A DNA stretch of 64,000 nucleotides from Cryobacterium arcticum (GTDB taxonomy: Bacteria > Actinomycetota > Actinomycetes > Actinomycetales > Microbacteriaceae), in assembly GCF_001679725.1 (NCBI RefSeq), contig NZ_CP016282.1, positions 2,790,001-2,854,000 of the forward strand. Reading direction: 5' to 3'. Position numbers and translations under genes: made by a program. Below, in pieces: positions 2,603-51,203 of the stretch. The stretch's first letter is position 1. Every line of letters begins with the position of its first letter. The notes under the pieces were generated by a model. The model made no database searches, was not told the DNA's origin, and saw nothing but the letters and a program-made list of their open reading frames with translations.

Positions 2603-2680
2603 TCACCCGATAAAGGCAAACCCGGTGCAAGTCGGGGACGCAAAGCCACGGGGCCCTCCAGGGTCAGCCGGGTTACCGAA
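2603..2680 (+). promoter_or_regulatory. Class I cyclic-di-GMP riboswitch (GEMM)
   Basis: The conserved GEMM-I pieces appear in order: AAAGGCAAACC-type strand, a hairpin closed by a GCAA (GNRA) tetraloop at 2627-2630 with arms 2621-2626 and 2631-2636, the receptor GGACGCAAAGCC (2636-2647), a second short stem (2652-2656 with 2661-2665), and the 3' GGGTTACCG end. The outer helix pairs ACCCG (2605-2609) with CGGGT (2669-2673). The aptamer ends about 16 bases before the ATG at 2696, and the Shine-Dalgarno-like GAGAG (2682-2686) lies immediately after it. No terminator is visible between them, so control of translation is likely; ON versus OFF cannot be read from sequence. Confidence 0.93.
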
Positions 2681-2695
2681 CGAGAGACAACCATC

Positions 2696-38037: not shown

Positions 38038-39327
38038 TCAGAACCCGGCCACCCGCCCCCGCGCCGACACCGCCAGCACCAGTGCCACCACCACGGCCAT
38101 GACGCCCGCGCCCCAGTAGGCGATCACGAGCATGCCGCCACCGGCGATGATGGCGCCGCCGGCCAGGGCGCCCAGGCCCGTGCCGAGCGCGATCACCGAG
38201 GAGTTCAGCGCCACGACGAGCTGCCCGTGGCGTCCGGCGAGGCCGAGCAGGATGCCCTGCAACGGCGAGTTGGCCGCCCACGCGGCGAACCCCCACACGG
38301 CGAACACCAGGCCGGCGCCCACGATCGACCGGCTCGCGATCGGCAGCAGCACCAGCGCGATCCCGCACACCGCGAAGCTCAGCCAGAGGGTGCGCGAGGC
38401 ACCCCAGCGGTCGGCCAGCCGGCCGCCCACAATGTTGCCGAGCACCCCGGCCGCGCCGTAGCAGAGCAGCAGCACGCTGAGGCCGATGCCGTCCACGCCC
38501 GACATCGCGGTGAGCAACGGGGATGCGTAGGTCTGAACCATGAGGGCCGCAGCGGTCTCGAGCATCGACACCAGCAGCACCACGAGCACGATCGGTGACG
38601 GCCAGCCCCGGCCGGGCCGCGCGACGATCGCGGCCTCGAGCGATTCGCGTGACGGCCGCGGCACGAGGGCGAGCACCGCCACGAAGGCCAGCACCGCCAG
38701 GCCCGCGGTGAGGGCGTATACGCCGCGGTAACCGAGCACCGGGCCGAGCAGGTTGCCCACCGGCGCGGCCACGACGGTCGCCGTGGTGAGCCCGCCGAAC
38801 ACCGTCGCCAGGGCCCGGCCGCGCTCCCCCGGCGCCGCGAGCCGCGACGCCAGCACCGTGGCCGTGGGCGTGAACCCACCGGCAGCGAACGCGGCCAGGC
38901 CGCGCAGCAGCGCCACGGTGTCGTAGTCCTCGGCGAACGCGGTGCCCACGCAGGCCAGCGCGAACAGCGCCAGCGCGGTGAGCATCAGCAGCCGCCGGGG
39001 CAGCCTGTTGCCGGCCAGGGCCACTATCGGCGTGGTCACGGCGTAGGTGAAGCCGTACACGCTCACGAGCCGGCCGATCTCCGGCACGGTCACGCCCAGG
39101 TCGGCGGACATGGTGGGTAACAGCCCCGTGACGATGTTCGAGCCGAACCCGATCGCGAAGGTGCCCAGCGCCAGCGGCCAGAGCCGGGGCCTGACGTGGG
39201 GCACGGATGCGCCGCGACCGGCCACCGCGCCTGCCCCCGCCGCCGGAACCACCGGCGAGACCGGCTCGAGTCCGGGCAGCGGCAGTGAATCGGTGCGGGG
39301 CGAGCTCGAGCGTCCGGCGTCAGGCAC
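38038..39327 (-). CDS. MFS exporter (DHA1/AraJ-like)
   Basis: 429 aa, twelve hydrophobic segments. Start taken as GTG 39327, which overlaps the allophanate hydrolase stop (GTGCCTGA). Motifs: LPTMSADLGVTVPEIGRLVSVYGFTYAV in helices 1-2, RLADRWGASRT after helix 8 and RALATVFGGLTTATVVAAPVG. This is the antiporter family of drug/sugar efflux proteins. As the last gene of the urea/guanidine-type catabolic operon it may export an intermediate or toxic analogue. Confidence 0.83.
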   Translation of the reverse strand: MPDAGRSSSPRTDSLPLPGLEPVSPVVPAAGAGAVAGRGASVPHVRPRLWPLALGTFAIGFGSNIVTGLLPTMSADLGVTVPEIGRLVSVYGFTYAVTTPIVALAGNRLPRRLLMLTALALFALACVGTAFAEDYDTVALLRGLAAFAAGGFTPTATVLASRLAAPGERGRALATVFGGLTTATVVAAPVGNLLGPVLGYRGVYALTAGLAVLAFVAVLALVPRPSRESLEAAIVARPGRGWPSPIVLVVLLVSMLETAAALMVQTYASPLLTAMSGVDGIGLSVLLLCYGAAGVLGNIVGGRLADRWGASRTLWLSFAVCGIALVLLPIASRSIVGAGLVFAVWGFAAWAANSPLQGILLGLAGRHGQLVVALNSSVIALGTGLGALAGGAIIAGGGMLVIAYWGAGVMAVVVALVLAVSARGRVAGF

Positions 39328-41176
39328 GGACGGCTCCGCCCACGTGCGCACGCCAGTCGCCGTCGGCCACCACGGGCTTGCCGGTCGCTGCGGTGGCCTC
39401 GCAGAGGTAGCCCACCACCTCGCGGCCGTCGGACAGGGTGACCCGGCCGAGGCCCAGCGGGGCGGCGGCCTCGAGCAGCAGTGCCGAGAGCGCCGTCTCG
39501 GGCACCCGCCACAGTTCGCCGAGCACACTGGAGTCGGAGTAGGGCGTGCGGATCATGCCGGGCCGGTTCAGCGGGTCGCCGAGGGCCACGAGGGTGTAGC
39601 CGGGCGCTGTGCGCACGTCGCCGGCGAACAGGGCGCCGTGGCGGCGCATCCGGTCGTGCAAGGGCAGGCCGGACAGGTGCGCACCCACCACGAGCAGGTG
39701 TACGCCGGCCGCGAGGTCCGAGCGCACGTGGTGTCCCGCCATACGCCGCTCCCCCACGTCCTCTCGCGACACCACATCCCGCGGAAGCGGCGAAGTGGCT
39801 GCTTCGGGAGCACGGAGGTGGCCGTTCGACCGCTCTCGCGAGCTCAAGGCCCGGGATTCCACGCGCAGCAGCAGGGCGGCCACGTCGCGGGCGACGGCGT
39901 CGGCGAAGGGGCGGGCGAGCACCTGCACGCCCACGTTCTCGTCGGGTGCGCCGGCGTCGATCGGCACCGCGTAGGCGGGGTAGCCGAAGAGGTTGGCGAA
40001 GTTGGTGAAGGTGCCCAACCGGGAGTTCACGGCGATGGGCTCCGCCGCCACCTCGGCCAGGGTGGGGTGGTGGGTGGTGGTGGGCAGCAGCATGGCATCG
40101 GCGCCGGCGAAGGCCCGTTCTCCGGCGAGCTTCAGCTCGGCCAGGCGCACCAGGTCGGCCGCGTACCGGTGGGCGGGCAGCTGCCCGGCGGCGGTGACGA
40201 TGCCGGCGACGACAGGGTCGAGTCCTGCGGGTGCTGCGTCGATGGCCGCTCCGACGGCGGCGTAGCGTTCGGCCACAAAGGCGCCGTTGTAGAGCAGCGC
40301 GGCGGCCTCCAGGAACGGGGAGATGTCGATCTCGACGAGGGTGACGCCGGCGTCGCGCAGGCGGCCGAGGTGGGCGTCGAAGGCGCTCCGCCAGAGCGGC
40401 GCAAGTGCCGTGAGGTCGGCGGCGCGCGGCACCGCGATCACGGGGTCCGCTGGGGCGGCGAGCGGGGCGGATGCGTGGGGCAGGGCCGCGAGGGCGTCGC
40501 GGCCGTCCGGTCCGGCCATCACCCGCAGCACCGACTCGGCGGTGTGGAGGTCGCGGGCGAACGCGGTGACGCAGTCGAGGCTCCGGCAGGCCGGCACGAC
40601 GCCCGTGGTGGGCACCAGGCCGACGGTGCCCTTGACCCCGACGAGCCCCTGCAGGGCGGCGGGAACCCGACCGGAGCCGGCCGTGTCGGTGCCGAGGGCG
40701 AAGTCCACCAGGCCGAGGGCAACGGCCACGGCCGAACCCGACGACGAGCCGCCGGAGATGCGGTCGGGGCGCCGGGCGCTCCGCACCGCGCCATAGGGGC
40801 TGCGGGTGCCGACCAGGCCGGTGGCGAACTGGTCGAGGTTGGTCTTGCCGAGCACCACGGCGCCGGCGGCGCGCAATCGGGCCACGGCCGTGGCGTCCTC
40901 CTCGGCGGGGTAAGCGAAACCGGGACAGGCCGCCGTGGTGGGCAGGCCGGCCACGTCGATGTTGTCCTTCACGGCGAACAGCAGCCCGGCCAGGGGCAGC
41001 GGTTCCCGCGCGATAGCGGCGCGGGCGAGCACCTCGTCGACCTCGGCCTGCACCTCGGCCTCGGCGCGCAGGGTGATCCACACCTCGGGCCGGTCCGCAG
41101 CGGCGATCGCCGCGTAGACCTCCGCGACACGAGCGGCGGGCGGGGTGCCGGGCGAGGCGAGGTCGGCGGGGGTCAT
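39320..41176 (-). CDS. atzF: Allophanate hydrolase
   Basis: 618 aa, the full two-domain length of AtzF. The amidase-signature domain (about 20-460) has K70 in LLFAVKDNIDV, the Ser cluster 144-146 in SGGSSSGSAVAVA and nucleophile S168 in GTDTAGSGR. The C-terminal allophanate-specific domain (about 490-618) contains GAHLSGLPLHDRM and the closing GYLCEATAATGKPVVADGDWR, in pieces. It hydrolyses allophanate in two steps to ammonia and carbon dioxide. ATGA overlap with UAAP2 and 8-base overlap with the MFS gene tie it tightly into the operon. Confidence 0.93.
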   Translation of the reverse strand: MTPADLASPGTPPAARVAEVYAAIAAADRPEVWITLRAEAEVQAEVDEVLARAAIAREPLPLAGLLFAVKDNIDVAGLPTTAACPGFAYPAEEDATAVARLRAAGAVVLGKTNLDQFATGLVGTRSPYGAVRSARRPDRISGGSSSGSAVAVALGLVDFALGTDTAGSGRVPAALQGLVGVKGTVGLVPTTGVVPACRSLDCVTAFARDLHTAESVLRVMAGPDGRDALAALPHASAPLAAPADPVIAVPRAADLTALAPLWRSAFDAHLGRLRDAGVTLVEIDISPFLEAAALLYNGAFVAERYAAVGAAIDAAPAGLDPVVAGIVTAAGQLPAHRYAADLVRLAELKLAGERAFAGADAMLLPTTTHHPTLAEVAAEPIAVNSRLGTFTNFANLFGYPAYAVPIDAGAPDENVGVQVLARPFADAVARDVAALLLRVESRALSSRERSNGHLRAPEAATSPLPRDVVSREDVGERRMAGHHVRSDLAAGVHLLVVGAHLSGLPLHDRMRRHGALFAGDVRTAPGYTLVALGDPLNRPGMIRTPYSDSSVLGELWRVPETALSALLLEAAAPLGLGRVTLSDGREVVGYLCEATAATGKPVVADGDWRAHVGGAVRA

Positions 41177-41877
41177 CGGGCGGTCCGGGTCACGAGCATC
41201 CGCACCGGGGTGGGGTTGAACCCGTTGCAGGGGTTGTTGATCTGCGGGCAGTTCGAGACCAGCACGAGCACGTCGCGTTCGGCGCGCAGGGTGAGTGAGA
41301 GCCCGGGGGCCGAGAGGCCGTCGACGATGCCGAGCGCGCCATCCGCCTCGACGGGCACGTTCATGTAGAAGTTGATGTTGCTGACCAGGTCGCGTTTGCC
41401 CAGGCCCCACCGGGCGCCCTCGGCGAGGAAGTTCTCGACGCAAGCGTGCTGGTGCACGGTGTGGTGGCCGTAGCGCAGGGAGTTGGACTCCTTGCTGCAG
41501 GCGCCGCCGATGGTGTCGTGCCGGCCGACCTCGTCGTGCACGAGGGTCATCAGGGCGTCGCCGGTGTTGGCGCGCAGCACCGAGCCCTGGCTGAGATAGA
41601 CGTTGCCCTGGGCGCTGATGGTGTCCGGCGCGCTGTAGCGCACGGCGGTGTCGGCGGCGTCGTAGAGCAGGAAGTCGACGGCCTGGTTGCCCTCGAGGTC
41701 GACGATGGTGAGTTCATCGCCGGCGGCCACGACGTGGGACCAGGGGCCGCGACGGCCCACGACCTCGTCGAGCACGATCTCCCGGCCGGACAGGCGCTCC
41801 GGTACGGCGTTCGGCGTCGGGTCGGCGGCGGGGCCGGTGCTGCTGTCGCTGCTGGTCTGCGTGTCGGTGCGGCCCAT
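41173..41877 (-). CDS. UAAP2 (DUF1989), carboxyguanidine deiminase subunit
   Basis: 234 aa. DUF1989 with LEGNQAVDFLLYDAADTAVRYSAPDTISAQGNVYL and the Cys motif SNCPQINNPCNGFNPTPVRML near the C-terminus, typical of urea-carboxylase-associated protein 2. In guanidine users the UAAP1/UAAP2 pair forms the carboxyguanidine deiminase CgdAB, which yields allophanate and ammonia. TGATG overlap with UAAP1. Assignment to UAAP2 is from the NCPQINNPCN signature. Confidence 0.88.
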   Translation of the reverse strand: MGRTDTQTSSDSSTGPAADPTPNAVPERLSGREIVLDEVVGRRGPWSHVVAAGDELTIVDLEGNQAVDFLLYDAADTAVRYSAPDTISAQGNVYLSQGSVLRANTGDALMTLVHDEVGRHDTIGGACSKESNSLRYGHHTVHQHACVENFLAEGARWGLGKRDLVSNINFYMNVPVEADGALGIVDGLSAPGLSLTLRAERDVLVLVSNCPQINNPCNGFNPTPVRMLVTRTAR

Positions 41878-42761
41878 CACAGTCCTCTCGTTCTGGCGTA
41901 GTCGATGGTGTTGACGAAGGCGCGGGCGGCCTCGGGGGTGGCGGTGGCCTCGGGCGACTCGAGCGTGGCCGCCTCGCCTCGCCAGGCCCGGATGCGCACC
42001 GGCGTGCTGGTGTACTCCGGCCGCGGGTCGACCGGGGACGGCACATTGGCCACGAGGAGCACGGCGGGCAGCTCGAAGCGCAGCCGCACGGCAGCGCCGG
42101 GGCCGGTGGAACCGGTGAACACCAGCGCGCCGTCCTCGGCGACCCGAACACCCTGGAACAGGGCGACGGTCGGCGGCAGGTCGCGCGGGGTGAGGCCGTG
42201 CTTGGCCGCGCCGAGGATCAGCAGCTCGCGACCGGCGGGGGTGCCGCCGTGCGCGGAGCCGTCTCCGTAGCGGGTCTCGTTCACCGCGCGGGTGGAGGTG
42301 CCCGCGAAGGTGTCGTGGGTGCCGGAGTTGTCGGAGACGATGGTGGCGAGCACCCGGCCGCGGTCGGAGAGCAGCATCGCGCCCTCGCCGAGGTAGGCCT
42401 GCCACTGGATCTTCACGGTGTCGGCCACGTTCAGGCGCTCGTCGAGTTGCGCCTGGTTGAAGATCGCCAGGTGCGCGCAGGCGTCGCCGTCGAGGTCGGT
42501 GAACTCCACGATCGTGCCGCGTTGCACGGCGAGGGTCGTGTAGTTGCCGCCCGCCACCGTTTCGGCGACGAAGCGGTCGTTCTCGGCGAGCCCGGCGGGC
42601 CATCCGCCGGCCGTGGCGGCCGGAACCGTGGGCATGGTCGAGACCCGGGTGCCGCCCTGCGCGCGGGCGTGTGCCCGGGCGCCGGCGGGCGACGCGGTCG
42701 ACGCCGCTCCCGCCGAGGCTGTGCCTGCGGCGTCCGAAGTCAGCTCAGTAGCCTCGTTCAC
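41877..42761 (-). CDS. UAAP1 (DUF1989), carboxyguanidine deiminase subunit
   Basis: 294 aa from GTG 42761, whose TGA-containing overlap (GTGA) with the hydrolase stop sets the start. The first 50 residues are Ala/Thr-rich and lack the family pattern. DUF1989 follows with LAENDRFVAETVAGGNYTTLAVQRGTIVEFTDLDGDACAHLAIFN (pieces) and the end RPEYTSTPVRIRAWRG then FVNTIDYARTRG, the UAAP1 signature. Predicted partner of UAAP2 in the deiminase. No carboxylase gene accompanies it, unlike the usual guanidine operons. Confidence 0.86.
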   Translation of the reverse strand: MNEATELTSDAAGTASAGAASTASPAGARAHARAQGGTRVSTMPTVPAATAGGWPAGLAENDRFVAETVAGGNYTTLAVQRGTIVEFTDLDGDACAHLAIFNQAQLDERLNVADTVKIQWQAYLGEGAMLLSDRGRVLATIVSDNSGTHDTFAGTSTRAVNETRYGDGSAHGGTPAGRELLILGAAKHGLTPRDLPPTVALFQGVRVAEDGALVFTGSTGPGAAVRLRFELPAVLLVANVPSPVDPRPEYTSTPVRIRAWRGEAATLESPEATATPEAARAFVNTIDYARTRGL

Positions 42762-43414
42762 GCGTTGCGCACCAGCTCGTGCACCGGGCTCACCGGCTTC
42801 GGGGTGGGCAGGGTGGCCAGCCACTCGTTGGTCTGCGCGGCGGTGACGAGAGCGTCGCGCTGCAGGTAGTGCATGGCCTGCAGGGCGTTGTCGTGCGCCT
42901 GCTGGGTGGAGCCGCCGACGCAGTCGGTGAGCACCCGGAAGCGGTAGTCGTGCTGGTGCGCATCCACCGCGGTGTAGTGCACGCAGACGTCGGTGAGTCC
43001 GCCGACGAGCAGCAGGGTCTCGGCCTTGTAGCCCTTGAGCACGATCTCCAGCTCGGTGCCGAAGAACGCGGAGTAGCGGCGCTTCTTGATCAGGAATTCC
43101 TCGGGGCGCGGGTCGATGCCCGGGGCCAGCTCGGTCTCTTCCCAGCCCTCGAGGCAGTGCGGGCCCTCGGAGCCGTCGAGCTCGCGGCCGATGTCCACGA
43201 GCGACGGCTTGTGCACCTCCTGGATGAACACCACCGGGATGCCCTTCTCGCGGCAGTGCCGGATCACTTCGCGCACCCGCGGGGCACGCTCGGTGCGGCC
43301 GCCCATGTAGGGGATCTCGGTGCGGGAGTCCTCGCGGGGAATCTCGCCGCCCTGGATGTCGACGACGATGAGAACGGTGTTTCCGACGATGTCTAGCGTC
43401 TCGGCGGCAGTCAT
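42758..43414 (-). CDS. Isochorismatase-family amidohydrolase (biuret/guanylurea hydrolase-like)
   Basis: 218 aa. Catalytic triad of the family: D19 in VVDIQ, K110 or K111 in EFLIKKRRYSAFFGT and C144 in GGLTDVCVHYTAVDAHQHDY. The cysteine nucleophile and RYSAF loop are those of amidohydrolases (biuret, triuret, guanylurea, N-carbamoyl amides), not of true isochorismatase. RBS AAAGGAA before ATG 43414. Directly upstream of UAAP1-UAAP2-AtzF, so its product should be a carboxylated amine feeding them: biuret would give allophanate and guanylurea would give carboxyguanidine. Substrate is inferred. Confidence 0.82.
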   Translation of the reverse strand: MTAAETLDIVGNTVLIVVDIQGGEIPREDSRTEIPYMGGRTERAPRVREVIRHCREKGIPVVFIQEVHKPSLVDIGRELDGSEGPHCLEGWEETELAPGIDPRPEEFLIKKRRYSAFFGTELEIVLKGYKAETLLLVGGLTDVCVHYTAVDAHQHDYRFRVLTDCVGGSTQQAHDNALQAMHYLQRDALVTAAQTNEWLATLPTPKPVSPVHELVRNA

Positions 43415-43527
43415 GGTGGTTCCTTTCGTGGTGGCGGGCGGTGAGGCCTGCCGGGGCAGTTCGAACATGCCGGCACCAGCGCCGGTCGGGGGTGAAGCTG
43501 GGTGAGGTGAAGACGGGATAGGTGAAG

Positions 43528-43562
43528 CGGATGCGGCGCCGGAACCCGGCCGGCCGCATCCG
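43528..43562 (-). terminator. Strong intercistronic hairpin
   Basis: CGGATGCGGC (43528-43537) pairs with GCCGCATCCG (43553-43562), with GCCGG/CCGGC inside and an AAC loop. It lies between the permease stop and the isochorismatase-family gene start, without a T-tract. It may partly uncouple or stabilise the importer and enzyme halves of the operon. Confidence 0.6.
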
Positions 43563-43566
43563 TGGG

Positions 43567-44565
43567 TCAGGTGAGGGAGATGCGCCGGTCGGCCACGACC
43601 TGGAGCACGTCGACGATGGTGTTCAGCAGCACGTAGGTGATGCCAAGCAGCAGGGCCACGCCGGCGATGCCGGGGAAGTCGCTGACGTTGACCGACTTCT
43701 CGAGGTAGCTGCCCAGGCCCGGCCAGGCGGTGATCTTCTCCACCACCACAAGGCCGCCGAGCAGCAGCCCGGTCTGGATGCCGATCATCGAGAGGGTGGC
43801 GCCGAGGGAGTTGCGCAGCGCGTGCCGCACGAGCACGGCGGACTCCTTCATGCCGGCCGAGCGGGCGGTGCGGGCGTGGTCGGAGCCGAGGTTGACCTTG
43901 AGGCCGTCCACGAGCACTCGGCCGATGGCCACCGCCGGGCTGATCGCGGCGCAGGTGGCGGGCAGCAACAGGTGCCAGACGGCGTCGCCGGCCACATCCA
44001 TTCGGCCGGCCAGCAGCGCGTCGAGCACGAGCAGGCCGGTGGGGCTGGACGAGCCGCCGCTGAAGCTGGAGCGGCCGCCGGCAGGGATGAGGCCGAGCGA
44101 CCCGTAGAACACCAGCAGCCCCACCATGGCGAGCAGGAAGGTGGGGGCGGCGGCTCCGGAGAGCAGCACGAACCGCACCACGGCGGCGCCCTTCCAGCGC
44201 ACCACGGTGAGCAGGGCGAAGAACGCGCCGAGGATCAGGGCGAAGCCGAGGGTCCACAGGGCCAGTTCAAGCGTGGCCGGGAACGCGGTGGCCAGGCCCT
44301 CGGCGACGGGGGTGCGGGTGCGCAGCGAGTTCTGCAGGTCGCCGTGCAGCAGGCCGCCGAGGTAGTCGAAGTAGCGCACCACGGCGCTCTGGTCGAGTCC
44401 CAGGCGTTCGCGGGCCCGTTCGAGGGCCTCGGCCGAGGCGTTGGCGCCCACATAGGCCTTGGCCGGGTCGACACCGCTGAGCTCCTGCAGGGTGAACAGG
44501 GCCACGGTGAGCGCCAGCAGCACGCCGGCCATGGCGACGATGCGCTTGAGGATGAACATCAGCAT
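43567..44565 (-). CDS. ABC permease, DppB/OppB type
   Basis: 332 aa with six transmembrane helices, starting MLMFILKRIVAMAGVLLAL. The EAA-type loop is HARTARSAGMKESAVLVRHALRNSLGATLSMIG (about 218-250, in pieces). Belongs to the peptide/nickel/opine importer family. No strong Shine-Dalgarno. Follows the DppC-type gene by 52 bases. Confidence 0.9.
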   Translation of the reverse strand: MLMFILKRIVAMAGVLLALTVALFTLQELSGVDPAKAYVGANASAEALERARERLGLDQSAVVRYFDYLGGLLHGDLQNSLRTRTPVAEGLATAFPATLELALWTLGFALILGAFFALLTVVRWKGAAVVRFVLLSGAAAPTFLLAMVGLLVFYGSLGLIPAGGRSSFSGGSSSPTGLLVLDALLAGRMDVAGDAVWHLLLPATCAAISPAVAIGRVLVDGLKVNLGSDHARTARSAGMKESAVLVRHALRNSLGATLSMIGIQTGLLLGGLVVVEKITAWPGLGSYLEKSVNVSDFPGIAGVALLLGITYVLLNTIVDVLQVVADRRISLT

Positions 44566-44617
44566 GTCGGCATCCGTTCTGAGGTAGGTGAGTGAAGGGC
44601 GGGGGCGGATGCGGGGG

Positions 44618-45499
44618 TCATCGGCGGGCCAGCAGGTCGCGGATGCCGTCGCCGGCGAGGTTGGCGCACAGGGCCAGCAGCATCACGGCCAGGCCGGGCA
44701 CCACGGGCACCCACCAGAACTGCAGCAGGTACTGCATGCCCTGGGCGGCCATGGCGCCGAGCTCGGGCGCCGGGGCCGGCGAGGAGAGACCGATGAAGGA
44801 CAGACCCGACATGGCCACGACGAGGCCGCCCACGTCGAGGCTCGCCGCGATCACCACCGTGGAGGTGACGCCGGGCAGCAGGTGCCGGGCGACCCGGCGG
44901 CTCCAGCCCACGCCGGCCAGGGTCGCGGCCTCCAGGTGCGGCCGGGCCGCCCAGGAGCGCACCTCGCCGCGCACCAGCCGGGCGTACATCGGCCACCACA
45001 CGACGGCCACGCCGATCAGCGAGCTGGTGAAGCTGGCGCCGAGGGCGGCGGCCACGACCATGGCGATGAGGATGCCCGGCAGGGCGAGGAACAGGTCGGT
45101 GACCCGCATGAGCAGGCCGTCCGCCCAGCCGCCGAGGGCGCCGGCGACGACACCGACGAGCCCGCCGATGATCACGCCGGAGGCGATCACGATGGCCGCG
45201 GCGGTGATGCTGGCGCGCAGGCCGAAGAGCAGGCGGGAGAAGATGTCGTAGCCCAGGGCATCCGTGCCGAGCAGGAAGCCGGGGCTCAGCGGCGGCTGGA
45301 ACGGTGCGCCGGCGCGCAGGATCGGGCTGTAGGGCGCGAGCACCGGGGCGAGCAGTGCCAGGAGCACGAGCAGCACCAGGCCGGTGAGGCCGATGAGGTT
45401 CACGACCGTGGAGCGGTGCCGCAGCGCGGTGACCCGCTGGAACTTGCGGGCGCCGCGGCCGGGCCGGGCCACGGTGGGCGTGGGGGCGAAAACGCTCAT
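44618..45499 (-). CDS. ABC permease, DppC/OppC type
   Basis: 293 aa, six helices. Starts MSVFAPTPTVARPG with ATGA overlap to the ATPase stop. Family marks: LLGTDALGYDIFSRLLFGLRASI near residue 78 and the EAA loop VRSWAARPHLEAATLAGVGWSRRVARHLLPG. With the DppB-type gene it forms the translocation channel of the importer. Confidence 0.9.
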   Translation of the reverse strand: MSVFAPTPTVARPGRGARKFQRVTALRHRSTVVNLIGLTGLVLLVLLALLAPVLAPYSPILRAGAPFQPPLSPGFLLGTDALGYDIFSRLLFGLRASITAAAIVIASGVIIGGLVGVVAGALGGWADGLLMRVTDLFLALPGILIAMVVAAALGASFTSSLIGVAVVWWPMYARLVRGEVRSWAARPHLEAATLAGVGWSRRVARHLLPGVTSTVVIAASLDVGGLVVAMSGLSFIGLSSPAPAPELGAMAAQGMQYLLQFWWVPVVPGLAVMLLALCANLAGDGIRDLLARR

Positions 45500-47256
45500 G
45501 CGCGGGCCTCTCCGAGGTCGAGGTCGAGATCCAGGTCGATGTCGAAGGTGTCGAGGGTGTTGCCCGCAACCGTGGGGATGGTGCTGGTGGGCGGCCGTTG
45601 CGGGGCCACCCGCAGGTGCTGGCCGGGGATGGCCGCGAGCAGCGACCGGGTGTACGGCTTGATCGGGTTGGCGCACACCTCGGCCGCGGCGCCGAGCTCC
45701 ACGATCTCGCCGCGGTTCATCACGGCGATGCGGTCGGAGATGACGCGGGCGGCGGCGAGGTCGTGGGTGACGAAGAGCAGCGACATGTTCAGTTCGCGGC
45801 GCAGCCGACCGAGCAGATTGAGCACTGTGGCGGCCAGGGACACGTCCAGGGCGCTGGTGGGTTCGTCGCAGAGCAGCACGGCGGGCGGCACGATCACGGC
45901 GCGGGCGATGGCCACGCGCTGGCGCTGGCCGCCGGAGAGGCTGTCGCCGCGGACCCGGGCGACGTCGGCGGGCAGGCCCACGCGTTCCAGAGCTTCCTCG
46001 ATGCGGTCGCGCACCTGGGTGCGGGTGAGGCCCGGGGTGGTGGCGGTGAGGCGTTCGCGGAGCAGTTCGCCCACGCTCAGCCACGGGGTGAGGGAGGAGC
46101 CGGCATCCTGGAAAACCATCTGTGGGCGGGTCGTGCCGGCCACGCTGACGGTGCCGGAGGTGGGGGTGTCCAGGCCCGCGACCATGCGCAACAGGGTGGA
46201 CTTGCCGCAGCCGCTCTCCCCCACGAGCGCCACCGACTCACCCTGCGCGATGGTGAGGCTGACACCGCGGACGGCGTCGAGGCTGCGGCGCTTCCACAGC
46301 GGGCCGCTGACGAAGCTGCGGCGCACATCCGTGATGGTGACGGCGGGGCCGCCGGGAGACACGTCCGGCCAGCGGGCGGGCAGGTGGTCGGCGGCACCGG
46401 CGCCGTGGGCGCTCACAATGGGCCGGTCGGTGGGGGTGTTCAGGTCGATGCGGGAGGCCAGCAGACCCTTGGTGTAGTCGTGTTGCGGGGTGCCGAGCAC
46501 GCTGGTGACCGTGCCGGATTCGACGATCTCGCCGCGGTACATCACGGCGATGCGGTCGCTGATCTGCGCGGCCACGCCGAGGTCGTGGGTGACGAAGATG
46601 ACGCTGCAACCGTGTTCGTCGCGCAGGGTGAGCAGCAGGTCGAGGATCTGCGCCTGCACGGTCACGTCGAGCGCGGTGGTGGGTTCGTCGGCGATGATGA
46701 GCGACGGATTACGGGCCAGGGCGAGGGCGATCATGACCCGTTGGCGCAGGCCCCCGCTCAGCTGGTGCGGGTAGGCGCCGAGCCGGGTGGCCGGGTCGGG
46801 GATGCCCACATCCGCCAGCAGCGTGAGCACATGGGCCTTGTCGCGGGCGACCTCCGCGAGCTGGTGCCCGATGGTCATGGTGGGGTCCAGCGACGTCATC
46901 GGGTCCTGGAAGACGGCGCCGATGTGTTCCTTGCGCACCAGCCGGTCGGCTTCGGCGGTGGTGCCCACGATGTCGGTGCCCTGGATCTGGATCGAGCCGG
47001 TGACCTTGGGCTTGGCGTAGTCGGGCAGCAGCCCCATCATGCTCAGGCCCAGCACGCTCTTGCCGGAGCCGGATTCCCCGACCAGGCCGAGGATCTCGCC
47101 GGGCATCACGTCGAAGCTCACGCCGCGCACGGCCTCGATGGCCGCGCCCTCACGGTGCAGGGTGATGCGCAGGTCCCGGACCCGGGCGACCGGGGCGGAT
47201 GCGTCGGGACCGGCGCCGGGCTGTGTTGCGCCGGACTGTGCGGTGGGGAAGGTCAT
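45496..47256 (-). CDS. Fused double ABC ATPase (DppDF type)
   Basis: 586 aa with two complete ATP-binding domains in one chain. Domain 1: Walker A GESGSGKS at 60-67, signature LSGGLRQRV, Walker B IIADEPTTALD. Domain 2 (from about 310): Walker A GESGCGKS, signature LSGGQRQRV, Walker B LLCDEPTSALD. Fused DppD/DppF-like subunits energise peptide-type importers. Overlaps the DppC-type gene by four bases. Confidence 0.93.
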   Translation of the reverse strand: MTFPTAQSGATQPGAGPDASAPVARVRDLRITLHREGAAIEAVRGVSFDVMPGEILGLVGESGSGKSVLGLSMMGLLPDYAKPKVTGSIQIQGTDIVGTTAEADRLVRKEHIGAVFQDPMTSLDPTMTIGHQLAEVARDKAHVLTLLADVGIPDPATRLGAYPHQLSGGLRQRVMIALALARNPSLIIADEPTTALDVTVQAQILDLLLTLRDEHGCSVIFVTHDLGVAAQISDRIAVMYRGEIVESGTVTSVLGTPQHDYTKGLLASRIDLNTPTDRPIVSAHGAGAADHLPARWPDVSPGGPAVTITDVRRSFVSGPLWKRRSLDAVRGVSLTIAQGESVALVGESGCGKSTLLRMVAGLDTPTSGTVSVAGTTRPQMVFQDAGSSLTPWLSVGELLRERLTATTPGLTRTQVRDRIEEALERVGLPADVARVRGDSLSGGQRQRVAIARAVIVPPAVLLCDEPTSALDVSLAATVLNLLGRLRRELNMSLLFVTHDLAAARVISDRIAVMNRGEIVELGAAAEVCANPIKPYTRSLLAAIPGQHLRVAPQRPPTSTIPTVAGNTLDTFDIDLDLDLDLGEARA

Positions 47257-47334
47257 GCTCGCCTCTGGGGTTCGGGGGCTGGAGAGGGGGTGGCCGGCGG
47301 GGCTGAAGCGCCGCCGCCGGCCGGGTGGGTGCTA

Positions 47335-48951
47335 CTACTCGTTGCCGAGAGCCGCGAAGTGCAGCACGTTGTACTCGAGCAGGTTGCGGGCGTCGTCCAG
47401 GCCGGTCAGACCGGTGCGGGCGATGGTCGTGGTCTGCAGCGAGCCGATCGAGAACCAGTACTTGGCCGCGATGATCTTTTGGGCGATGGCGGCATATGCG
47501 TCATTGCCCTCAGTGGCCAGGGCCGCGTCGAGGTCGTCGTTCAGGCCGGGCACCTCGGCGCCCAGCACGTCGAGGCCGCCGGTGGGCGTGTAGATGATGC
47601 GCGCCCAGGCGTCCACGTGGCCGGCGTCGGGGAACGCGGCCATGATCACCAGGTCGGGGGCTGCGGCCAGGTCGTCGGTCAGGGAGTAGACCGATCCGCT
47701 GCCGAGCGACACGGCCTCGGCGGGCAGGCCGGCGGAGCTGAGCGTTGCGCCCATTTCCTGGGCCACGGCCGCGGCATCGGAGCTCGACGCCGGGTAGCCG
47801 ATGCGGATGGTCTTGCCCGCGGCGATGCCGGAGTCCACGATGCCCTGCAGTGCGGCGGGGTCGTAGGTGACACCCTGGTCATCCGCTGCGGCGTCGAGCA
47901 TACCGGCCGGGAACAGCTGGCTGGTGGGCACCTCGAGCTCGCCCATGGACGAGTCGATGATCGTCTTGGTGTCCAGGCCCGAGAACAGCGCAGTGCGGTC
48001 TTCCACTGTGGTGAAGATCGCGGAGGCCGGGTTGACGTAGACCATCTGGGTGGTGAAGTTGGGGAACGTCGACGCGTCGAGCTTGTCGTTGCTCGCCAGC
48101 GACGCGAAGGTGGTCTTGTTCAGGTTGCCGAGGATCGCGTCGATCTCACCGCGCTCCAGGCGCAGCTGGGCGGCCGAGGCGTTGTCGCTGATCTCGATGT
48201 TCACGGTGCCAAACTCGGGGGCGTCGCCCCAGTAGTCGTCGGCGGCGGTCAGCGTGTAGGAGACGCCGGTTTCGACATCCGACAGCTCGTAGGGGCCGGT
48301 GCCCGCGTCGTGCGTGGTGAGGTAGGTCTGCGCGAAGTCGTCGCCGGCCTCCTCGGTGAGCACGGTGGGGCTGACCATCTTGAGGCCGAACGGCGAGGCG
48401 AGGTAGTCCACGAACGCCGAGTTCGGCGCCGCGAGGGTCACGTCGACGGTGTAGTCGTCGACGGGAGTGACGGCCGTGACGTCGCCGACCATGTACGCCG
48501 GGCCGCCGTCGACGGCGGTGCGGCGCTCGAACGAGGCCACCACGGCGTCGGCGTTGAACTCGGTGCCGTCGTGGAAGGTGACGCCCTCGCGCAGGGTGAA
48601 GGTGTAGGTGAGGCCGTCGTCGGAGAGGGTCCAGTCGGTGGCGAGTTCGGGCACGATCTCGGCGGTGTCCGAGCCGTCCTGGTAGGCGACGAGGCCCTCG
48701 TAGGTGCTCTCGATGATGTTCAGGCCCGGGCCGTCGTAGTTCGTGTCGGGGTCGGGCGGGGTGGTGTAGGTCTGGGTGATCACGACGGTGAGGCTGTCGG
48801 AGGCGCTCGAGCCGAAGCTGTCGGTCGCGGCGGAGCTGGAGCAGCCGGCGAGCGCGAGCGCGGTGACGGCGGCGAGGCCGGTGAGCAGAGCGGCCTTCCG
48901 GGGGCGGGAGAAGGCGGACCGCGCGGGGCGGCTGAACGGGGTTGGGGACAT
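47335..48951 (-). CDS. ABC substrate-binding lipoprotein (family 5)
   Basis: 538 aa. Lipobox LAGC with C37; the N-terminal basic stretch is long (SRPARSAFSRPRK). SBP_bac_5 features: GLVAYQDGSDTAEIVPELATDWTLSDDGLTYTFTLREGVTFHDGTEFNADAVVASFERR (first lobe, in pieces). Family 5 proteins bind peptides, opines, nickel or other small solutes; the catabolic genes downstream suggest a urea- or guanidine-containing ligand. First gene of the importer operon. Confidence 0.92.
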   Translation of the reverse strand: MSPTPFSRPARSAFSRPRKAALLTGLAAVTALALAGCSSSAATDSFGSSASDSLTVVITQTYTTPPDPDTNYDGPGLNIIESTYEGLVAYQDGSDTAEIVPELATDWTLSDDGLTYTFTLREGVTFHDGTEFNADAVVASFERRTAVDGGPAYMVGDVTAVTPVDDYTVDVTLAAPNSAFVDYLASPFGLKMVSPTVLTEEAGDDFAQTYLTTHDAGTGPYELSDVETGVSYTLTAADDYWGDAPEFGTVNIEISDNASAAQLRLERGEIDAILGNLNKTTFASLASNDKLDASTFPNFTTQMVYVNPASAIFTTVEDRTALFSGLDTKTIIDSSMGELEVPTSQLFPAGMLDAAADDQGVTYDPAALQGIVDSGIAAGKTIRIGYPASSSDAAAVAQEMGATLSSAGLPAEAVSLGSGSVYSLTDDLAAAPDLVIMAAFPDAGHVDAWARIIYTPTGGLDVLGAEVPGLNDDLDAALATEGNDAYAAIAQKIIAAKYWFSIGSLQTTTIARTGLTGLDDARNLLEYNVLHFAALGNE

Positions 48952-49008
48952 CGGGTCGAACCTCTCGGAACAGGGGTGGGCCAGGGGGCTGTGCAGGGGG
49001 TGAGGCTG

Positions 49009-49054
49009 GGTGACACAGGGAATGAAGCTGAGGTGACACAGGGGTGACGCAGGG
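49009..49054. repeat. Three direct 12-bp repeats in the importer leader
   Basis: GGTGACACAGGG occurs at 49009 and 49032, and GGTGACGCAGGG at 49043 (plus strand). They lie in the leader of the binding-protein gene on the minus strand, 58-100 bases before its start. Role unknown. Confidence 0.8.
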
Positions 49055-49095
49055 GCCGATGCGGGGCAACACCCGGAATCGAGCGGGCCGCCGAA

Positions 49096-49109
49096 ATATC
49101 TATCGCTGA
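49096..49109. promoter_or_regulatory. Operator half A of inverted pair
   Basis: ATATCTATCGCTGA here is the reverse complement of 49171-49184 (13 of 14 positions). It lies next to the predicted promoter of the importer operon on the minus strand. Probable binding site of the TetR protein at 50463-51203. Confidence 0.65.
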
Positions 49110-49165
49110 CAAAAACTATCCCGGCACTGTTTCGGCGTGATTGCCGAATGTTTCGATCACGTAAA

Positions 49166-49194
49166 TTCGATCAGCGATAGGTATTCGGTAGACT
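49166..49194 (+). promoter_or_regulatory. Promoter of amidohydrolase-tetR operon
   Basis: -35 TTCGAT at 49166-49171, 17-base spacer, -10 TAGACT at 49189-49194. The expected start point falls on the ATG at 49201, so the mRNA is leaderless. Confidence 0.65.
49171..49184. promoter_or_regulatory. Operator half B of inverted pair
   Basis: TCAGCGATAGGTAT sits exactly in the spacer between the -35 TTCGAT (49166-49171) and -10 TAGACT (49189-49194) of the amidohydrolase promoter, a classic place for repressor binding. Pairs with 49096-49109. Confidence 0.65.
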
Positions 49195-49200
49195 GGGCCC

Positions 49201-50466
49201 ATGACCCCGAGCCTGCTGCTGCGCAATGTCACCGTGATCGACGGCCTCGGCGGAGCCCCGCGCCCCGCCCACGATGTGCTCATCACGGACGGCCTGTTCA
49301 CGTCGATCTCCCCCACCGGCTCCCTGCCGCTGCCTCAGGTGGTCAACCCGGATGCCCTCACCGTGCTCGACGGCACCGGCCACACCGCGCTGCCGGGCTT
49401 CTTCGACTGCCACGTGCACGTGAGCACCTCCCCCGCCACCGACACCCTCACGAGCATCACCGAACCGGAAAGCGCCAAGACCCTGCGGGCGGTGCCGGCC
49501 CTGCGTGCCACGCTCGACGCCGGGGTCACCAGCGCCCGGGACCTTGCCGGAGCGGACTCCGGGTTTCGCGATGCCATCGCCGACGGCGTCATCGCCGGGC
49601 CGGCGCTGCAGCTGGCCATCCGCATCCTGAGCGTCAGCGGCGGGCACGGCGACTGGCGCACCGTGGGCGGCACCCCGTTGGACACCGGCCCCGGCGCCGG
49701 CGTGGTGGGCGACTCCCCCGCCGACTTCGTGCGGCTCACCCGTGAGGTGATCCGCGAGGGCGCCGACTGGATCAAGGTGGCCGCCACGGGCGGCATGGGC
49801 AGCCCGCGCAGCAACCCCGAGGGCGGTGGCCTCAGCGAGGCCGAACTCCGCGCCGTCGTGGAGGAGGCCGCCCGGCACGGCCACATCGGCGTCGCCGCGC
49901 ACTCCATCGGCACCGCGGGCATCGCCGCGGCCGTGCGCGCGGGTGTGCGCAGCATCGAGCACGGCTACCTCATCGACGACGCCACCATCGAGTTGATGGG
50001 CGAGCAGGGCACGTTCTTGGTGCCGACCCTCTCCACGCTCACCCGCCCGGCCTCCCCCACCGCGGCACCCTGGACGGTGGCCAAACGTCGCCGCACGGTC
50101 CAGAACGCCCGTGAACGGGTCGGCGCCGCCATCCGTGCCGGTGTGAATGTGGCGCTCGGCACCGATGCCGGCATCGTGGAGCACGGCACCAACCTGCGCG
50201 AACTGGCCCTGCTCGTGGAGTTCGGCCTCACCCCGATGCAGGCGATCCTGGCCGGCACGTCGTCCGCGGCCCGCATGAGCGGCATACTGGACGAAGTCGG
50301 CACCATCGAGCCGGGCAAAAGGGCCGATCTGGTGGCAACTCTGGTCGATCCGCTTGCCCAGATCGCTGCCCTGGCCGATCCCGGCGCAATGCGACTGATC
50401 GTGCAGTCCGGCCGCATCCACTCGTCCACCTTCCCCCTCGAGAGCACGGAGCCCCAGAGCGCATGA
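49201..50466 (+). CDS. Metal-dependent amidohydrolase (prolidase/imidazolonepropionase-like)
   Basis: 421 aa amidohydrolase-superfamily TIM barrel. Metal ligands: HxH in FFDCHVHVS (about 68-76), K in DWIKVAATGG, H in AAHSIGT, H in SIEHGYLI and D in LGTDAGIVEHG; the C-terminal LDEVGTIEPGKRADLV closes the small beta domain. This branch contains Xaa-Pro dipeptidases and hydrolases of cyclic or aryl amides. In this locus it may release the urea- or guanidine-type unit from an imported precursor. ATGA overlap with tetR. Confidence 0.88.
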   Translation: MTPSLLLRNVTVIDGLGGAPRPAHDVLITDGLFTSISPTGSLPLPQVVNPDALTVLDGTGHTALPGFFDCHVHVSTSPATDTLTSITEPESAKTLRAVPALRATLDAGVTSARDLAGADSGFRDAIADGVIAGPALQLAIRILSVSGGHGDWRTVGGTPLDTGPGAGVVGDSPADFVRLTREVIREGADWIKVAATGGMGSPRSNPEGGGLSEAELRAVVEEAARHGHIGVAAHSIGTAGIAAAVRAGVRSIEHGYLIDDATIELMGEQGTFLVPTLSTLTRPASPTAAPWTVAKRRRTVQNARERVGAAIRAGVNVALGTDAGIVEHGTNLRELALLVEFGLTPMQAILAGTSSAARMSGILDEVGTIEPGKRADLVATLVDPLAQIAALADPGAMRLIVQSGRIHSSTFPLESTEPQSA

Positions 50467-51203
50467 CCTCGACACCCGACACCGACGCGAGTGGCACCTC
50501 TGGCACCGCGGCGACCTCCCCGACGGATGCGCCGACCACGCCCAAGCGCACCGCCGGCCGCCCCCGCGCCGAGGGCAAGCAGCGCGCGGGCCTGAGCACC
50601 CGCGACGAGATCCTCGAGGCCGCGGCCACCCTGTTCACCGACCAGGGCTACACCGACACCACCACCCGGCAGATCGCGTCGGTGGTGGGCATCCGCCAGG
50701 CCTCGCTGTACTACCACTTCGCCGACAAGGGCAGCATCCTCAGCGCTCTGCTCACCGGAACCGTCGAGCCGGCCGTGCACTTCGCCGAGTGGCTCGACAC
50801 CCAGCCGCTCGACGCCCCCACCAAGCTCTACGCGCTGGCGAAGTACGACCTCGACGTGATCCTGCAGGACCGCTGGAACCTGCACGTGCTCTACCGCCTG
50901 CCCGACGCCAAGGCCGAGCGCGGCGACACCATGCAGGCCGCCCTGCAGGAGCACTACCTCCGCTTCGCCACGGCCGCCGCGGCTGCCGGCACCGACCCTC
51001 AGGCCGTGACCGACGACCTGCACCTGGTCTTCGGCCTGGTGGAGAGCATCCTGGTGCAGCGTGACTGGGGCGGCGGGGCCGCCCGGCACGCCTACGCGGA
51101 CTCGATCGCCCGCGGCTGCCTCCGCCTGGTGCGGGTGCCCGAAACGGCCTTCCCGACCATTTTCGACATCGCCCAGCGCGCCATCGCGACCTACCCGGCC
51201 TGA
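50463..51203 (+). CDS. TetR-family regulator of the catabolic locus
   Basis: 246 aa. A disordered Thr/Ala-rich N-terminus (1-45) is followed by the HTH: TRDEILEAAATLFTDQGYTDTTTRQIASVVGIRQASLYYHFADKGSIL (in pieces, about 46-93). Ligand domain has RWNLHVLYRLPDAKAERGDTMQ. Co-translated with the amidohydrolase (ATGA). It probably binds the inverted pair at 49096-49109/49171-49184 and controls both divergent operons in response to the substrate. Confidence 0.88.
   Translation: MTSTPDTDASGTSGTAATSPTDAPTTPKRTAGRPRAEGKQRAGLSTRDEILEAAATLFTDQGYTDTTTRQIASVVGIRQASLYYHFADKGSILSALLTGTVEPAVHFAEWLDTQPLDAPTKLYALAKYDLDVILQDRWNLHVLYRLPDAKAERGDTMQAALQEHYLRFATAAAAAGTDPQAVTDDLHLVFGLVESILVQRDWGGGAARHAYADSIARGCLRLVRVPETAFPTIFDIAQRAIATYPA

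Follow-up and report, generated by a model that had tools for sequence, protein, structure and literature searches.

The locus described here occupies positions 38038–51203 of a 64-kb window of the Cryobacterium arcticum genome (the window being the whole stretch of DNA that was analysed, to which all coordinates refer). A forward-strand pair of genes, coding for an amidohydrolase (AMH) and a TetR regulator, diverges from nine reverse-strand genes: a substrate-binding protein (SBP), a fused ATPase, permeases C and B, an isochorismatase-like hydrolase (IHL), UAAP1, UAAP2, AtzF and an MFS transporter (Table 1). UAAP1 and UAAP2 correspond to CgdAB, the carboxyguanidine deiminase of the guanidine carboxylase pathway (gca-cgdAB-atzF). 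No carboxylase was found among the genes of the locus. The first-pass annotation of this DNA had listed the importer, the hydrolase, UAAP1, UAAP2, AtzF and the amidohydrolase-TetR pair, all of which were found, and had proposed that the hydrolase replaces the carboxylase as the source of carboxyguanidine.

Table 1. Features of the C. arcticum locus, in window coordinates
Feature	Position	Strand	Support
MFS transporter, exporter type (AraJ/Cmx-like)	38038..39252	-	PF07690, 139.5 bits
AtzF allophanate hydrolase, 618 amino acids	39320..41176	-	TIGR02713, 598.2 (cut-off 511.05); Amidase PF01425 and AH_C PF21986
UAAP2, deiminase subunit	41173..41877	-	TIGR03424, 325.0 (cut-off 284.7)
UAAP1, partner deiminase subunit	41877..42761	-	TIGR03425, 268.3 (cut-off 205.95)
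IHL, isochorismatase-like cysteine hydrolase, 218 amino acids; triad D19, K111, C144	42758..43414	-	PF00857, 135.0 bits
Permease B, peptide/nickel-type ABC	43567..44565	-	PF00528 and PF19300
Permease C, peptide/nickel-type ABC	44618..45499	-	PF00528 and PF12911
Fused two-domain ABC ATPase, peptide-type importer	45496..47256	-	PF00005, two stretches
SBP, family 5 substrate-binding protein	47335..48951	-	PF00496, 204.5 bits
Operator-like palindrome CTRTC-N3-GAYAG	49100..49112		pattern match, 1 mismatch
Second operator-like palindrome	49168..49180		pattern match, 1 mismatch
AMH, amidohydrolase of the arginine-carboxypeptidase/prolidase/ochratoxinase group	49201..50466	+	PF01979, 149.7 bits
TetR regulator, 4-nucleotide overlap with AMH	50463..51203	+	PF00440, 49.1 bits

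The central genes appear to be tightly coupled. The ATG of AtzF overlaps the stop codon of UAAP2 by 4 nucleotides (nt) and UAAP1 and UAAP2 overlap by 1 nt. The start of UAAP1 is probably the GTG at 42761, which gives a 4-nt GTGA overlap with the IHL stop codon, because the alternative ATG at 42635 is downstream of an N-terminal motif (GARxHARAQ) common to the UAAP1 proteins of carboxylase operons; a start there would leave a gap of 122 nt after IHL. The four overlapping genes of the earlier description (IHL, UAAP1, UAAP2 and AtzF) therefore stand, provided that the GTG start is used. The start codon of the MFS gene is uncertain (39252, 39327 and 39351 are among the candidates).

The IHL protein has 7448 homologues at an E-value of 1e-20. 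A comparison of gene order in other genomes, as the annotation had proposed, was made using tblastn maps of the best 80 of the 216 named-genome stretches that match IHL. The order seen in the window, without a carboxylase, was found in Cellulomonas-type genomes (L018–L020, L022–L025 and L078), although several of these loci end at contig edges, L018 before AtzF; in L019, the individual genes are 55–82% identical to those of the window locus. Since the order recurs in these genomes, it is not a product of chance. Other arrangements exist. The importer, AMH, TetR and IHL genes occur without UAAP and AtzF in Agreia (L016 and L017) and Streptomyces (L034), while the Demequina cluster comprises TetR, UAAP1, UAAP2, AtzF, the importer, two IHL genes, MFS and AMH, with a carboxylase just past TetR (within the retrieved stretch in L205; judged by coordinates in the other loci). 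The maps also show the MFS gene in the clusters of Agreia, of Demequina and of the Cellulomonas-type genomes. In Conexibacter (L093), in one genome bin (L076) and in two genomes of genus g115 (L202 and L203), IHL is accompanied by both UAAP and a carboxylase. The record title of L076, which carries the guanidine cluster and belongs to a genome of about 5.0 Mb, is that of a Bifidobacterium breve metagenome-assembled genome (MAG), a name that is probably wrong. No relative of IHL was found on viral contigs.

The residues of the deiminase pair were compared between 10 pairs accompanied by IHL only (those of the window and of the Cellulomonas-type genomes) and 33 others, which include the Demequina pair and other pairs with an IHL nearby; columns at least 93% conserved in the 33 were considered. 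The comparison left out three duplicates, three pairs whose context was unclear (including that of the Streptomyces genome G160) and the pair of the Micromonospora genome G171. The IHL-only pairs keep the majority residue in 142 of the 143 columns (85/85 in UAAP2 and 57/58 in UAAP1). The sole exception is Arg44 of UAAP1 (numbered from the ATG at 42635): 32 of the 33 others have this Arg, whereas each of the 10 IHL-only pairs has Glu or Asp; perhaps a contact was lost along with the carboxylase. Three UAAP2 cysteines in conserved columns, C127, C146 and C210, are probably zinc ligands, by analogy with the role ascribed to cysteines of other DUF1989 proteins in the accessible portion of PMC12560246. 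In a tree of UAAP proteins, the IHL-only pairs are nested within carboxylase-linked lineages, which reads as carboxylase loss in the former; the monophyly of the IHL-only clade is weak (0.44), that of a wider clade including Herbiconiux strong (0.999). One leaf, L206, is labelled in the tree as having an IHL nearby, yet its genome (G281) contains no IHL match. From this residue pattern, the window pair is probably of the carboxyguanidine-deiminase type and would still receive carboxyguanidine.

The distribution of IHL follows that of the pair. Among 150 genomes of the family, the Microbacteriaceae, to which an Agreia genome also belongs, IHL was found in 5 and DUF1989 in 23; all 5 IHL genomes are among the 23, with 2–4 DUF1989 matches each. 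In a sample of 396 genomes of the order, the UAAP pair is present in 45 (a count made from the listing which includes G256 and G348, where the second member is broken or cut), the carboxylase in 48 and IHL in 19, the latter spread over 6 of 109 genera. The pair is present in all 19 IHL genomes (Fisher P = 2e-20, kinship being ignored). Among 47 genomes hand-picked from IHL loci, and thus non-random, 45 have DUF1989 matches (at least two in 43 of them); the two without are one Acrocarpospora and one Streptomyces. Where IHL precedes UAAP1, the junction is tight in 10 of 10 cases (−3 or +10 to +12 nt).

Carboxylases were then searched for in 26 genomes with a carboxylase encoded elsewhere in the C. 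arcticum genome (locus L014, described below) as query. Full-length matches were obtained in the host, Agreia, Demequina, Herbiconiux and Nocardioides (with one internal TGA in Nocardioides), and piecewise matches in some of the others. In none of the eight Cellulomonas-type genomes having IHL-UAAP1-UAAP2 was a full-length carboxylase found; the matches there correspond to the biotin-carboxylase part of other enzymes (41–42% identity) and/or to a separate carboxyltransferase-like piece (38–41%). In the order sample, four genomes possess the UAAP pair without a carboxylase (G348, G354, G411 and G499). G499 is the same genome as G153, and G348 and G354 were disregarded because the UAAP genes of both are at or near contig ends (G354 is, in addition, 88% complete). 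G411, a single contig of 3 437 431 bases, has no match to the carboxyltransferase domain PF02682, and its cluster (L192, G411:C1:1506001-1525000) has IHL immediately before UAAP1. In its genus (g120), two genomes have IHL and no carboxylase, and four (G252, G321, G349 and G569) have the pair and a carboxylase but no IHL. The L014 query also detected no full-length carboxylase in genomes of two further lineages. Streptomyces G160 carries two IHL genes (L033 and L034) and a UAAP1, UAAP2, AtzF operon (L210:6762-10848) in which only fragments of the carboxylase survive between UAAP2 and AtzF, matching residues 1–46 and, in another frame, 74–104. Micromonospora G171 has contiguous UAAP1-UAAP2-AtzF genes 6.7 kb from IHL, an order also seen in Micromonospora G176. 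Altogether, 11 genomes from three lineages (G152–G160, G171 and G411: nine Cellulomonas-type, one Micromonospora, one Streptomyces) have IHL and UAAP without a full-length carboxylase.

The host itself is different. Its genome (4.35 Mb in three contigs, 100% complete) contains DUF1989 matches at the studied locus and at C1:275863-277166. The latter belong to L014, a canonical operon (UAAP1-UAAP2-carboxylase-AtzF, with a carboxylase of ∼1200 amino acids) about 2.55 Mb from the studied locus on the same contig. PF02682 matches are found at C1:279632 and C1:3921298, both beyond the window, and the other biotin-carboxylase genes of the host give only partial matches to the L014 carboxylase. The latter has an Asp opposite Asn737 of the Kluyveromyces lactis urea carboxylase structure 3va7, which is position 1330 of the K. 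lactis protein (by an offset of 593 established with chains 3va7 and 5i8i); this position discriminates guanidine from urea carboxylases according to the available part of PMC11410670, so that the class assignment is made at one of two diagnostic positions. As judged from these genes, C. arcticum is probably able to carboxylate guanidine with a separate, complete enzyme set. The absence of a carboxylase is thus true of the locus, not of the genome.

IHL is a member of the isochorismatase-like superfamily by score (above the PF00857 cut-off), fold and Asp-Lys-Cys triad. The first-pass annotation had pointed out that isochorismatase relatives hydrolyse biuret, triuret and guanylurea; IHL, however, is not closely related to those hydrolases. 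Its score against the biuret hydrolase (BiuH) equivalog model NF050097 is 67.6 bits for a cut-off of 370, and its alignment with the MET guanylurea hydrolase covers 151 residues at 28% identity, the triad and a Tyr being common to the two. The MET enzyme is itself near BiuH (227 bits to 6xjm, versus 62 bits for IHL). By sequence, then, IHL is outside the group formed by BiuH, TrtA and the guanylurea hydrolase GuuH. At the residue level, the columns of E66, D142 and Gln185 are common to IHL and BiuH/TrtA, whereas in an alignment to two BiuH chains Tyr114 replaces the substrate-binding Lys of BiuH/TrtA (K132 of TrtA; residue roles are those given in the accessible text of PMC7948467), and IHL has no counterpart to the N-terminal DFC...GY stretch of BiuH. 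Tyr is also present at the Tyr114 column in the MET guanylurea hydrolase and in other family members, so that it argues only against BiuH/TrtA; the MET enzyme has Glu in the Gln185 column. The AlphaFold2 model (mean predicted local distance difference test score of 81.9) retrieved RutB, N-carbamoylsarcosine amidohydrolase, maleamate amidase, BiuH and TrtA within about 1 Z unit of one another, and such near-equal matches cannot point to a substrate.

IHL-type genes are also found in Microbacterium, Micromonospora, Streptomyces and others (L031, L033, L048, L060, L080, etc.), in large catabolic clusters. Their neighbours, grouped with a crude gene caller which missed the IHL gene of the window, are Rieske oxygenase, ferredoxin-type, glutamine-synthetase-like, aldehyde dehydrogenase, copper amine oxidase, phosphotriesterase-like, amidohydrolase, gamma-glutamyltransferase and dimethylformamidase-like proteins. 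The fetched flanks of most such loci contain no UAAP pair. These contexts would be explicable by a common carbamoylguanidine intermediate, but also by a broader amidase. Twelve loci (L046, L055, L063, L067, L068, L071, L072, L074, L075, L079, L083 and L084) contain tandem IHL genes, the second copy being 53–58% identical to the window IHL; by analogy with TrtA followed by BiuH, these possibly perform two successive hydrolytic steps.

A deiminase pair with conserved residues thus lies immediately downstream of a cysteine hydrolase in genomes that seem incapable of carboxylating guanidine, and carboxyguanidine is most simply taken to be the product of this hydrolase; its substrate would then have to be H2N-C(=NH)-NH-CO-X, with a nitrogen or oxygen leaving group as X. 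On balance, we lean towards the view that these genes encode a hydrolytic pathway, complete in itself, by which a guanylurea-type compound is used without guanidine carboxylase. The reactions, substrate, transport and regulation are predictions; what was observed is the content and order of the genes, their coupling and conservation, their phyletic pattern and the absence of carboxylase from some IHL-bearing relatives. The peptide-type ABC importer would take in H2N-C(=NH)-NH-CO-X (X = NH2 or NHR); if a larger precursor is imported, AMH may shorten it first. The cysteine hydrolase IHL would cleave the carbamoyl C-X bond to give carboxyguanidine, a labile compound that UAAP1/UAAP2 would deiminate to allophanate ahead of its loss of CO2 to guanidine; AtzF would then convert allophanate to ammonia and CO2. 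The ATP- and biotin-dependent guanidine carboxylase step would thus be skipped. There is a precedent for a carboxylated product, since TrtA frees carboxybiuret, seen together with biuret by nuclear magnetic resonance (PMC7948467, accessible text). An isochorismatase-fold enzyme, GuuH, acts on guanylurea (PMC9800807, in the part available), and in the Pseudomonas mendocina guanylurea pathway (GuuH, guanidine carboxylase, CgdAB and AtzF) it feeds CgdAB and AtzF, as is proposed for the locus. The locus resembles the guanidine carboxylase pathway in the presence and order of the deiminase pair and AtzF, and differs from the latter by the missing carboxylase, the IHL gene ahead of the pair and the peptide-type importer. 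The proposal that the hydrolase replaces the carboxylase is supported by the 11 genomes, from three lineages, that lack a full-length carboxylase.

Several observations weigh against this proposal. The host has its own guanidine carboxylase operon, and the IHL product could also be used via guanidine. The same part of PMC9800807 reports guanidine as the product of GuuH, with a carboxylase used downstream, and no member of the IHL clade with a known activity was found. In Agreia, the IHL protein is 89–91% identical and sits with the importer, AMH, TetR and MFS without UAAP or AtzF, the UAAP pair being elsewhere, inside a carboxylase operon. IHL and carboxylase are retained together in Demequina, Conexibacter, the L076 bin and genus g115, and a carboxylase is present in 16 of the 19 IHL genomes of the order sample. 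The co-occurrence counts take no account of relatedness. As to the carboxylase-free genomes, 10 of the 11 are draft assemblies; G159, a MAG, gave no match even to the usual acyl-CoA biotin carboxylase and is weak evidence; the carboxylase remnant of Streptomyces is known from one draft genome; and the pairs of G160 and G171 were outside the residue comparison, the UAAP1 of G171 being 33% identical to that of the window. No AtzF lies beside the UAAP pair of L192 (between UAAP2 and MFS), the remainder of G411 not having been searched for it, and G348 has a UAAP pair, at a contig end, with neither IHL nor carboxylase.

Part of these observations would fit a scheme in which IHL frees guanidine (for instance from an acylguanidine), which a carboxylase operon elsewhere in the genome finishes, the linked UAAP and AtzF genes adding capacity only. 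The carboxylases of the host, Agreia, Demequina and most IHL genomes of the order sample, and the Asp of the L014 enzyme, speak for it; free guanidine would, however, be a dead end in the 11 genomes having IHL and UAAP without a full-length carboxylase, and we hold this scheme to be unlikely. It is somewhat less likely again that the amide attacked by IHL and AMH has nothing to do with guanidine, UAAP/AtzF being a neighbouring acquisition. The quite different catabolic clusters in which IHL-type genes accompany oxygenases and amine oxidases, and the Agreia cluster lacking UAAP/AtzF, are compatible with this idea, against which stand the co-occurrence with DUF1989 (19/19 and 45/47 genomes), even where the genes are unlinked, and the tightness of all 10 IHL-UAAP1 junctions. 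IHL could also be a biuret/triuret-type hydrolase which feeds AtzF directly, with the UAAP pair along for the ride. The fold, the triad and the alignment of Gln185 with the substrate-binding Gln of BiuH and TrtA (Glu in the MET enzyme) agree with such an activity; we nevertheless regard it as quite improbable in view of the low BiuH score, the Tyr in place of the BiuH/TrtA Lys, the retention of the pair with its residues conserved where the carboxylase has gone, and the tracking of the pair by IHL in 19 of 19 genomes. The published BiuH/TrtA pathway has no UAAP pair. Finally, the order of steps could be reversed, UAAP deiminating guanylurea to biuret and IHL then converting biuret to allophanate. 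This requires an identical gene set, has the same net nitrogen yield and makes use of a fold that suits biuret, but the pair keeps 142 of 143 residues as in other, mostly carboxylase-linked pairs, and IHL is without the BiuH/TrtA Lys; such an order seems very improbable.

If carboxyguanidine is formed by IHL, the nature of X may be approached through the other genes. The nearest solved chains to SBP are peptide, dipeptide and nickel binding proteins, unlike the neighbour of the MET guanylurea hydrolase, which is annotated as a sulfonate-type transporter. AMH has solved relatives in 3feq, 3mtw (L-Arg carboxypeptidase Cc2672), 3be7 and 4c5y, Cc2672 and prolidases being among the nearest (173–181 bits); its best NCBIfam model is below cut-off (NF051886, 261.3 versus 500). 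A peptide-type importer and an arginine-carboxypeptidase-like AMH make a substituted guanylurea likelier than free guanylurea, and these similarities suggest compounds such as red-algal gigartinine or gongrine. Among the alternatives of the first-pass annotation, a bulkier imported precursor cut by the amidohydrolase is thus the best fit, whereas free guanylurea as substrate was a guess, IHL being distant from known guanylurea hydrolases. Gigartinine and gongrine, which are guanylureido amino acids, account for 48.3% of the organic nitrogen in one red alga according to the accessible part of PMC13208526, where a report titled on L-gigartinyl-L-gigartinine is also cited. That the operon is dedicated to such natural guanylureido amino acids and their dipeptides (gigartinine, gongrine and gigartinyl-gigartinine) is a speculative extension, on the unlikely side: the dipeptide-type importer would take up dipeptides, AMH would split them, IHL would free carboxyguanidine together with ornithine or gamma-aminobutyric acid, and CgdAB and AtzF would finish. 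A second link between AMH and guanidine genes is seen in an Agreia genome, where an AMH-like stretch (L204:1-282, 57%) lies ∼3.5 kb from the AtzF gene of a canonical carboxylase operon.

As to regulation, the two 13-bp operator-like palindromes of Table 1 are in the region that separates AMH from SBP; inspection by eye revealed similar sites in seven related intergenic regions. Over the whole window, the pattern is matched 4 times for 4.55 expected; the palindromes are of interest only through the location of these two matches and their recurrence in related regions. No mismatch-free pattern was found in nine other IHL loci tried. The TetR protein is 35–42% identical to TetRs beside carboxylase-type guanidine operons. 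An operator common to the locus and to a carboxylase operon is unsupported: at one mismatch the pattern is missing from L014 (1.27 matches expected by chance), and the Cellulomonas carboxylase operons L193–L195 have two-mismatch matches only. Hence, while the search of the rest of the genome proposed in the annotation did reveal a carboxylase, in the L014 operon, its co-regulation with the studied locus is not supported, although it may occur by other means. Neither the window nor L014 gave a guanidine riboswitch match that reached the Rfam gathering score; a c-di-GMP-I-GGC riboswitch is present at 2606–2681 (forward strand, 64.0 bits). The genes flanking the locus (hemerythrin, wax-ester synthase, TetR, NmrA-like and LacI) look unrelated to it.

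No description of a carboxylase-free entry into carboxyguanidine was found in the literature searched, most subscription papers being outside that search. The described bacterial entry, by the carboxylase, costs ATP and requires biotin, so that hand-over from a hydrolase to the deiminase would be cheaper. If correct, this route would explain the UAAP pairs of carboxylase-less genomes, which would otherwise be taken for broken guanidine or urea pathways, and guanylurea-type compounds would be natural nitrogen sources predating metformin and dicyandiamide. The algal version, if true, would provide both a pre-industrial natural substrate for guanylurea-type catabolism and a carboxylase-free entry. 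The four proteins would also constitute an actinobacterial enzyme set for clearing guanylurea-type pollutants.

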